NCBI RefSeq assembly: GCF_007752135.1
Contig: NZ_CP036298.1
Coordinates: 4,278,001-4,342,000 of the forward strand
Source: Aureliella helgolandensis
GTDB taxonomy: Bacteria; Planctomycetota; Planctomycetia; Pirellulales; Pirellulaceae
DNA length: 64,000 nt
Reading direction: 5' to 3'
Positions 54,377-56,159 of this stretch are shown one piece after another. The notes under the pieces are model-generated. The model did no database searches. It saw only the letters and a program-made list of their open reading frames with translations, and was not told where the DNA came from. The position numbers were made by a program, and so were the translations under genes. Numbering within the stretch: the stretch's first letter is position 1; each line of letters starts with the position of its first letter.

Positions 54377-54586
54377 TTACAGTAAAGGTGCTAACACCCA
54401 GTAGGCAAATAGAGTGAGCAGAATGCCCACCGTCAAGATGACCCACTTGGGCTGCGACGAGGCCGCCGACTCATCATCGAGCAGGTAGTGGCCGCACGCA
54501 GGGCAGCGATCGGCATCCGCATACACGTCAGCTCCACAATTATTGCAAATGACTGTCTCTGTCTCTTCGTCCGTTTCCCACTCCAA
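54377..54586 (-). CDS. Small zinc-ribbon tail-anchored protein
   Basis: A 69-residue protein with an acidic N-terminus, a four-Cys zinc ribbon (CNNCG and CPACG, 12 residues apart) and a C-terminal membrane helix (WVILTVGILLTLFAYWVL). TTG 54586 is the best start because AGAGGAG stands 7 nt before it; an adjacent TTG 54589 is possible. No ATG is available. Such small ribbon-helix proteins are frequent in planctomycetes; the role is unknown. The sulfatase gene follows after 36 bp. Confidence 0.78.
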   Translation of the reverse strand: MEWETDEETETVICNNCGADVYADADRCPACGHYLLDDESAASSQPKWVILTVGILLTLFAYWVLAPLL

Positions 54587-54593
54587 CAATTTT

Positions 54594-54957: not shown

Positions 54958-55632
54958 ATGTTCCCACCCAAGAATCCGCGAAAATTCAGCGACTGCCTCC
55001 AGCACTTGCCGGCTGGCAGCAGTGAACTGCTGATCGTGGAGGGGGATTCTGCCTCAGATGCAGTCGTCAAGCTGCGAAATCCTGAATACCAGGCCGTGTT
55101 GCCCATGCAGGGAAAACCGATGAACGCAATGAAGGCGTCCACTGCGAAACTGGAAAACTCTCCTCTGTTTCGCACGCTCTGCGAGTCCTTGGGGGTCAGC
55201 CTAAGGGATCCGGCCTCAACCTCAAAATTGAAGTACTCCCGAATCGTATTCCTATTTGATCCCGATGCAGACGGGATACACTGCGGGGTGCTGATGTTGC
55301 TATTCTTCTATCGTTTTCTGCGTCCAGTACTAGACTCAGGGCACGTCTATAGAACGCAAACACCTCTGTTCGAGGTCACGACCGGTTCGCCCTCTGGTCA
55401 GCAGACCTTCTACGCCTACACAGAACCCGAGCTTGGTGTGCTCATGCGGGACGTGCGACAAGCGGGCCTGACCATTACCGGTCGCAGCTACTTCCGAGGG
55501 CTGGCCAACTTTCCGGCAAGCACGCTGAAGTCCACCTGCATTAATCCGGCGAGTCGCAAGCTAGTACGGCTGGGGGCGCGAGACGCTGAAGCAGCGCTGC
55601 GGATTTTTCGACATTCCGCTCAGCCAGCGTAA
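54958..55632 (+). CDS. Free-standing GyrB-type TOPRIM protein
   Basis: A 224-residue protein matching only the C-terminal part of DNA gyrase subunit B (about 800 residues). It has LLIVEGDSASDA (Glu28), VLPMQGKPMNAMKA, and FDPDADG with Asp101, Asp103 and Asp105, so all metal-binding acidic residues of the TOPRIM site are kept. The following FYRFLRPVLDSGHVYRTQTP and the final RSYFRGLANF...NPASRKL segments also match GyrB in order, though GLGEM is degenerate. The ATPase and transducer domains, and their coding sequence upstream, are absent. It may be a decayed paralogue or a protein acting with another partner. The ribosome site is weak. Confidence 0.85.
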   Translation: MFPPKNPRKFSDCLQHLPAGSSELLIVEGDSASDAVVKLRNPEYQAVLPMQGKPMNAMKASTAKLENSPLFRTLCESLGVSLRDPASTSKLKYSRIVFLFDPDADGIHCGVLMLLFFYRFLRPVLDSGHVYRTQTPLFEVTTGSPSGQQTFYAYTEPELGVLMRDVRQAGLTITGRSYFRGLANFPASTLKSTCINPASRKLVRLGARDAEAALRIFRHSAQPA

Positions 55633-55796: not shown

Positions 55797-56159
55797 TCAG
55801 GACGACTGCAAAACAGCCTTGCCACCGTTGCGTCCGCTGCGAGAGCGATCGAGAACGCGTTGCAAAATGGTCATCCACGTCTTGTTCAACCGCAGTGTGA
55901 CCTCGTGGACCTTCTTGTCGTCTTCGGGCTCAAAGTCGATCTCGAAGCCAGCGACCGACAAGGTGTCGTTCGGGCTCTTACCGGCTTGGCAAGCCTTCCA
56001 GAAACGGACGCTATGCAGCGTGCTTTCCGCCTTGGACGTGGCTGTCTCTTCGGTAATTACGTCCACAGTCTTGGTAACTTCGGAGGTCAAGCTGGTCATC
56101 ATCTCTTGACGCAAGTTATCAGCCCAGTTCTTCCAACGTGTCTTTTCTTGTACGGACAT
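55797..56159 (-). CDS. Small charged protein of unknown function
   Basis: A 120-residue soluble protein without leader, rich in Lys, Glu, Thr and Ser, with helical N-terminus (EKTRWKNWADNLRQEMMTSL) and a beta-type middle (DTLSVAGFEIDFEPEDDKKVHEVTLRLN). GAAAG 7 nt before the ATG is a fair ribosome site. The opposite strand is open too, but this frame has the better composition. It converges on the TOPRIM gene. Family not recognised. Confidence 0.6.
   Translation of the reverse strand: MSVQEKTRWKNWADNLRQEMMTSLTSEVTKTVDVITEETATSKAESTLHSVRFWKACQAGKSPNDTLSVAGFEIDFEPEDDKKVHEVTLRLNKTWMTILQRVLDRSRSGRNGGKAVLQSS

Follow-up and report, generated by a model that had tools for sequence, protein, structure and literature searches.

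A gene for the TOPRIM and tail half of GyrB/ParE, conserved within one bacterial order, is a candidate ATPase-less subunit of type IIA topoisomerases

Textbooks present type II topoisomerases as clamps operated by ATP, and the active site of the type IIA enzymes is shared between two subunits, with the TOPRIM acids coming from B and the tyrosine from A. The question raised by the locus studied here is what purpose a gene serves that encodes the cleavage part of a B subunit and nothing of its motor. This gene lies at 54958-55632 on the forward strand of the window (the whole stretch of 64,000 nucleotides that was analysed), with an ATG at 54958, a stop codon at 55630-55632 and a product of 224 amino acids, here called the half. 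The genome, a single contig of 8.44 Mb, encodes a full-length GyrB (854-aa frame) and a ParE (641-aa frame) elsewhere, and the half is therefore an extra protein.

The half matches GyrB/ParE solely from the TOPRIM domain to the tail. Pfam Toprim was found at residues 23-132 (1.9e-10) and DNA_gyraseB_C weakly (0.0011; 19.5 bits, under the 29.8 cut-off), while the ATPase (GHKL) and transducer domains were absent from the ORF in the Pfam search, and upstream of the ATG the reading frame is open for 13 codons only. The best NCBIfam GyrB model was aligned from position 409 to 615 of its 641 positions with residues 7-218; its score of 151.6 bits falls short of the family cut-off of 740, as expected of a partial protein. 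In a sequence search against the PDB, ParE and GyrB cleavage-core chains topped the list (best 4e-33). The AF2 model, built from 48 aligned sequences (mean pLDDT 93.7, pTM 0.89), has the TOPRIM and tail fold of a GyrB47-like subunit, and its top Foldseek matches are ParE and GyrB chains of gyrase and topoisomerase IV cleavage cores, among them Streptococcus pneumoniae ParE (3k9f, 2.8e-21) and Mycobacterium tuberculosis GyrB (5bs8, TM-score by query 0.82). A sequence-only reading of this DNA had described the gene as encoding only the TOPRIM and tail parts of GyrB with the order of the GyrB blocks preserved; the Pfam and NCBIfam alignments bear out the former, and the latter description is correct.

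To define the family, the window protein was searched against 241 genomes of the window's family, and 58 of them contained the same truncated form at E ≤ 1e-34; the open frames concerned span 201-386 aa, versus ~640 aa or more for nearly all ParE/GyrB frames. A profile of 18 copies, searched against 396 genomes of the order, gave 37 matches in family f8 (3e-62 or better), one further match in family f7 and six divergent matches in genus g342 of the window's family (8.3e-58 or better). Related genomes thus do carry orthologues. The g342 copies (L357-L362) have the lowest scores among the halves and seemingly have additional residues separating the two TOPRIM parts. All 14 matches in a 297-genome class sample fell within the order, and no half was found outside it in a 392-genome phylum sample at E 1e-52, a threshold applied to both samples that very divergent copies could escape; all that passed in the phylum sample was the own genome and a single full-length frame (G301, 5.1e-55, 651 aa). 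Neither this frame nor the other full-length frames passing the profile (best in the order sample, 1.5e-50) were counted, nor was a partial match in an f8 genome (G766, 1.1e-48, 160-aa frame). Within this sampling, the half characterises one order, with a patchy spread in the window's family and a frequent presence in f8. Two short copies (L141 and L142) come from MAGs that bear the label Candidatus Kuenenia; the small contigs holding them are probably misbinned, since the copies resemble those of f8 by eye. These two are the only short-type copies among the matches listed in the genome-contig scan, from which near relatives may be missing.

In total, 93 copies were fetched, including those of the window and L060 and leaving out 9 of the 37 from f8. 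All but one are intact; the exception, L370 (G843), has a premature stop and was excluded from the tree and from all counts of 92. Internal stops were flagged for G505, G560, G573, G572, G567 and G843, only the last of which is truncated, and the frames of L127, L102, L357, L359 and L360 read through the normal tail. With the starts chosen in this analysis, the length is 200-240 aa in 59 copies. A start codon is located 8-45 residues ahead of the EGDSA motif, the only range scanned, in 54 of 57 copies, a count without L084 and L106, which the motif pattern missed. Open frames in f8 reach up to 597 aa; because 27 of the 28 f8 and f7 copies have an ATG no more than 45 residues from the motif and no B-subunit N-terminus is found upstream, these copies were taken as short proteins.

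Conservation was then counted in the 92 intact halves and 87 full-length proteins. The catalytic Glu28, in ELLIVEGDSAS (residues 23-33; 55024-55056 on the forward strand, as computed from the ORF start), and the metal-binding D101, D103 and D105, in FDPDADGIH (residues 100-108; 55255-55281, same strand), are each present in 92/92 halves, so that the TOPRIM glutamate and DxDxD motif typical of GyrB/ParE is complete throughout. K53, R180 and R200 are likewise invariant, and overall the main basic positions of catalysis are retained. Other positions set the family apart from full-length proteins. In PMQGKPMNAMKA (residues 49-60; 55102-55137, forward strand), position 51 is Q in 88 of 92 halves versus R or K in 86 of 87 full-length proteins, and position 54, next to K53, is P in all halves versus I or V in 79 of 87. 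The signature also includes P102, A104 and I107 (92/92 each) and C194 (88/92). The position that is mostly glutamine in the halves is presumably the quinolone-contact position of GyrB (K447 or R458 in other gyrases). The tail motif YKGL has its counterpart in FRGL (residues 179-182; 55492-55503, forward strand), where the lysine of 85/87 full-length proteins is replaced by arginine in 92/92 halves, a conservative change; the lysine of YKGLG is proposed to catalyse religation, according to one study (PMC4686662). Moreover, G34, E70 and T115, kept in at least 83 of the 87 full-length proteins, are relaxed in the halves. Together with Q51 and R180, this relaxation suggests that the chemistry or an interface of the half may differ. 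From residue 23 onward, no tyrosine column is conserved in the 92 halves, the best being Y in 61.

With the acids present and no tyrosine conserved, natural use of the half would need an A subunit to supply the tyrosine. We regard it as an even call that the gene belongs to an old family of type IIA topoisomerase B subunits that lack the ATPase and act with GyrA, and judging from the combined analyses the half probably aids gyrase in cutting or relaxing DNA without ATP. It would dock on the winged-helix domain of GyrA in the place of GyrB and complete, with the GyrA tyrosine in trans, a Mg-dependent cleavage-religation site; either GyrA2-half2 or a mixed gyrase could then cleave or relax DNA without ATP capture, and the half may work like the laboratory fragment GyrB47, tuning gyrase output. 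Published work describes ATP-independent relaxation by GyrA2/B47_2, which lacks the ATPase and transducer domains (PMC7897471), and relaxation without ATP by gyrase minus its ATPase domain, more efficient than that of the full-length enzyme (PMC3763546); in these studies, relaxation was measured with GyrB parts longer than the half.

The sequence-only reading had considered three roles for the protein: nicking DNA by itself, competing with gyrase for GyrA, and binding DNA ends. Autonomous nicking by topoisomerase chemistry is unlikely in view of the absence of a conserved tyrosine. Partnering with GyrA is the most likely of the three, although as an active subunit rather than as a mere competitor. 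A non-catalytic decoy or modulator would occupy the GyrB site on GyrA, or enter mixed tetramers, and lower supercoiling, and both the fold, which is that of the GyrB TOPRIM, and the substitutions at sites that hardly vary among full-length proteins are compatible with this; nevertheless, metal ligands would be dispensable in such a protein, but 92/92 halves retain all four, and we consider the decoy unlikely. We are also doubtful that the half is a stand-alone TOPRIM nuclease, hydrolysing DNA in a metal-dependent manner, or a DNA-end binder, neither requiring an A subunit. While the retained TOPRIM acids, the lack of a linked topoisomerase gene and the pI of 9.5 of the window protein agree with such a role, the median pI over 59 copies is only 7.6, a GyrB-type tail with RGL and R200 is kept beyond TOPRIM, topoisomerase cores are the best folds, and PADLOC gave no match to the family.

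A and B subunits were sought in the own genome and 44 hand-chosen further genomes, all of which share GyrA as an A subunit. In the own genome, the A-subunit family and the B-subunit family each have two matches; 44/44 further genomes match both families, with separate genes in all 45. In each of the 12 bearers from f8 and f7, there is one A-subunit match (frames of 920-1085 aa) and one B-subunit match (826-960 aa, or 653 in G691), assigned as GyrA and GyrB by length; GyrA is therefore the sole A partner available there, and topoisomerase IV is not required. By comparison, two A subunits were found in 13 of 14 bearers from f1 versus 5 of 16 non-bearers, and two non-bearers from other families have one each; the f1 half thus tends to go with topoisomerase IV in the chosen set, making ParC a possible partner there. 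Neither the own genome nor 26 further bearers yielded a spare A or B partner. Among the 44 hand-chosen genomes, all from this order, 26 have a single A and a single B match and appear to be without topoisomerase IV.

In the window, the half gene stands alone. Its divergent upstream neighbour (54377-54589, reverse strand, TTG start) encodes a 70-aa zinc-ribbon protein with a hydrophobic tail and is followed on this flank by genes for a sulfatase and a PSCyt1/PSCyt2/PSD1 protein, also opposite in strand to the half gene; Pfam describes PSCyt1 as planctomycete cytochrome c, which fits the planctomycete label. On the other flank, likewise on the opposite strand, are the convergent downstream neighbour (55797-56159, reverse strand), encoding a 120-aa protein with no Pfam match at 0.01, and a fatty-acid desaturase gene. 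A link of either adjacent gene to the half is not established. When four B subunits of the host and relatives were used as queries, no ATPase or transducer similarity was detected in the window, in agreement with the earlier statement that none is encoded upstream, and nothing was detected in the 92 other loci beyond one match at E 0.33; the same search recovered 42/42 full-length control loci, four of them being query sources. None of the 93 loci contains an A-subunit gene. Among ORFs of at least 90 aa near 59 copies and at least 100 aa near 93 copies, with flanks incomplete on the many short contigs, no neighbour is common to the family. The ORFs recurring in 8 or 9 loci upwards are frames antisense to the half gene, genes seen in f1 only (up to 12 loci), or genes at scattered offsets that we take to resemble common planctomycete families. 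An operon partner was thus rejected: without a shared neighbour, no operon ties the half to gyrA.

These data also bear on whether the half forms part of a split B subunit of the phage T4 kind, whose ATPase half would be encoded at another site. Such splits exist in T4-type phages (PMC2988022); however, every PF00204 match in the own and 44 further genomes lies in a frame of at least 638 aa, no ATPase remnant occurs near the 93 copies, and no separate gene for an ATPase half exists as far as PF00204 sees, making this explanation very improbable. A phage origin was also rejected, as a viral scan with the single protein found no relative among 17 candidate stretches. In a profile scan of viral sequences, the best 80 of 86 loci were taken, and the 30 shortest of 160 genome-contig and viral loci are frames cut by contig ends or of at least 595 aa, except for L141, L142 and L284. 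The last, from a viral contig, is a 220-aa frame with 28% identity, aligned from residue 53 only, and is perhaps a gp60-like small topoisomerase subunit.

In a FastTree phylogeny, the 92 halves form one clade (local support 1.0) on a stem of 0.92, which makes it likely that the family arose once from a B subunit and then evolved separately for a long time. The full-length ParE and GyrB sets are incompletely separated and the nodes near the attachment of the halves have supports of 0.558-0.847, so the tree does not tell a ParE from a GyrB origin. Within the halves, the f8 copies (27) group as one clade (1.0), unlike the four copies from the genus of the window, and the sole f7 copy (L340) groups with f1 copies L099, L105, L110 and L117 (0.999), a hint of transfer between families; these groupings suggest loss and some transfer. 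The dN/dS (NG86) is 0.035-0.204 in the 27 closest pairs (dS < 0.5), indicating purifying selection on the half in close pairs; over the 1215 pairs with dS < 2, for which dS is probably saturated in these GC-rich genomes, the ratios have a median of 0.34 and reach 0.62 at most. The earlier view that the acidic site is retained by selection is thus supported by both the four invariant acids and the close-pair ratios. A decaying GyrB/ParE duplicate or an annotation accident is hardly credible, since, although the half was found in 4 and not found in 11 of the 15 genomes of the genus and 1 of 93 fetched copies has a premature stop, the single long-stem clade, the invariant active site, close-pair dN/dS far below 1 and a start codon within the scanned range in 54/57 copies show neither relaxed selection nor scattered catalytic loss. 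As judged from sequence comparisons, the half is a real protein family and not a product of decay.

If the half is an active partner of GyrA, the gyrase A subunit of this order may work in two forms: one that supercoils DNA driven by ATP, and one, gene-encoded, that relaxes or cleaves it independently of ATP. We make this proposal tentatively. What has been known until now as a fragment made in the laboratory or by proteolysis would then occur as a natural enzyme, and a conserved cleavage-half gene would mean that the DNA gate can be used by cells in the absence of the motor. The half would also let the need for the ATPase be tested in a natural setting, and would be a compact GyrA partner with mostly glutamine at the presumed quinolone-contact position.

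Among known systems, ParE and GyrB have the same TOPRIM and tail fold, metal ligands and block order as the half, which differs from them in lacking the ATPase and transducer domains, in its 30-40% identity and in the signatures Q51, P54, P102, R180 and C194. OLD-type and other TOPRIM nucleases share the TOPRIM acids; in contrast to the OLD type (PMC6755086), the half has no ATPase domain and carries a GyrB-type tail instead. The gp39/gp60 topoisomerase of phage T4 likewise has its B subunit in more than one polypeptide, and phrog_7229 (172 positions) matches residues 84-198 of the half; the match ranges suggest that the T4 split lies inside TOPRIM, whereas the half has the whole TOPRIM in one protein and no partner piece was found. 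A shorter planctomycete GyrB paralogue without an insert, described in a gyrB paper (PMC8567305), differs from the half. Among the papers listed in literature searches, none is recognisable by title or abstract as describing a conserved stand-alone GyrB half, which is not proof of absence in print. The nu protein of topoisomerase II prime is, we presume, kin to a GyrB47-like fragment. GyrB47, the C-terminal TOPRIM fragment of E. coli GyrB, is, like the half, a B subunit without ATPase and transducer; it is a cloned fragment of residues 393-804, whereas the half is encoded by its own gene, as a protein of 200-240 aa beside intact B subunits.
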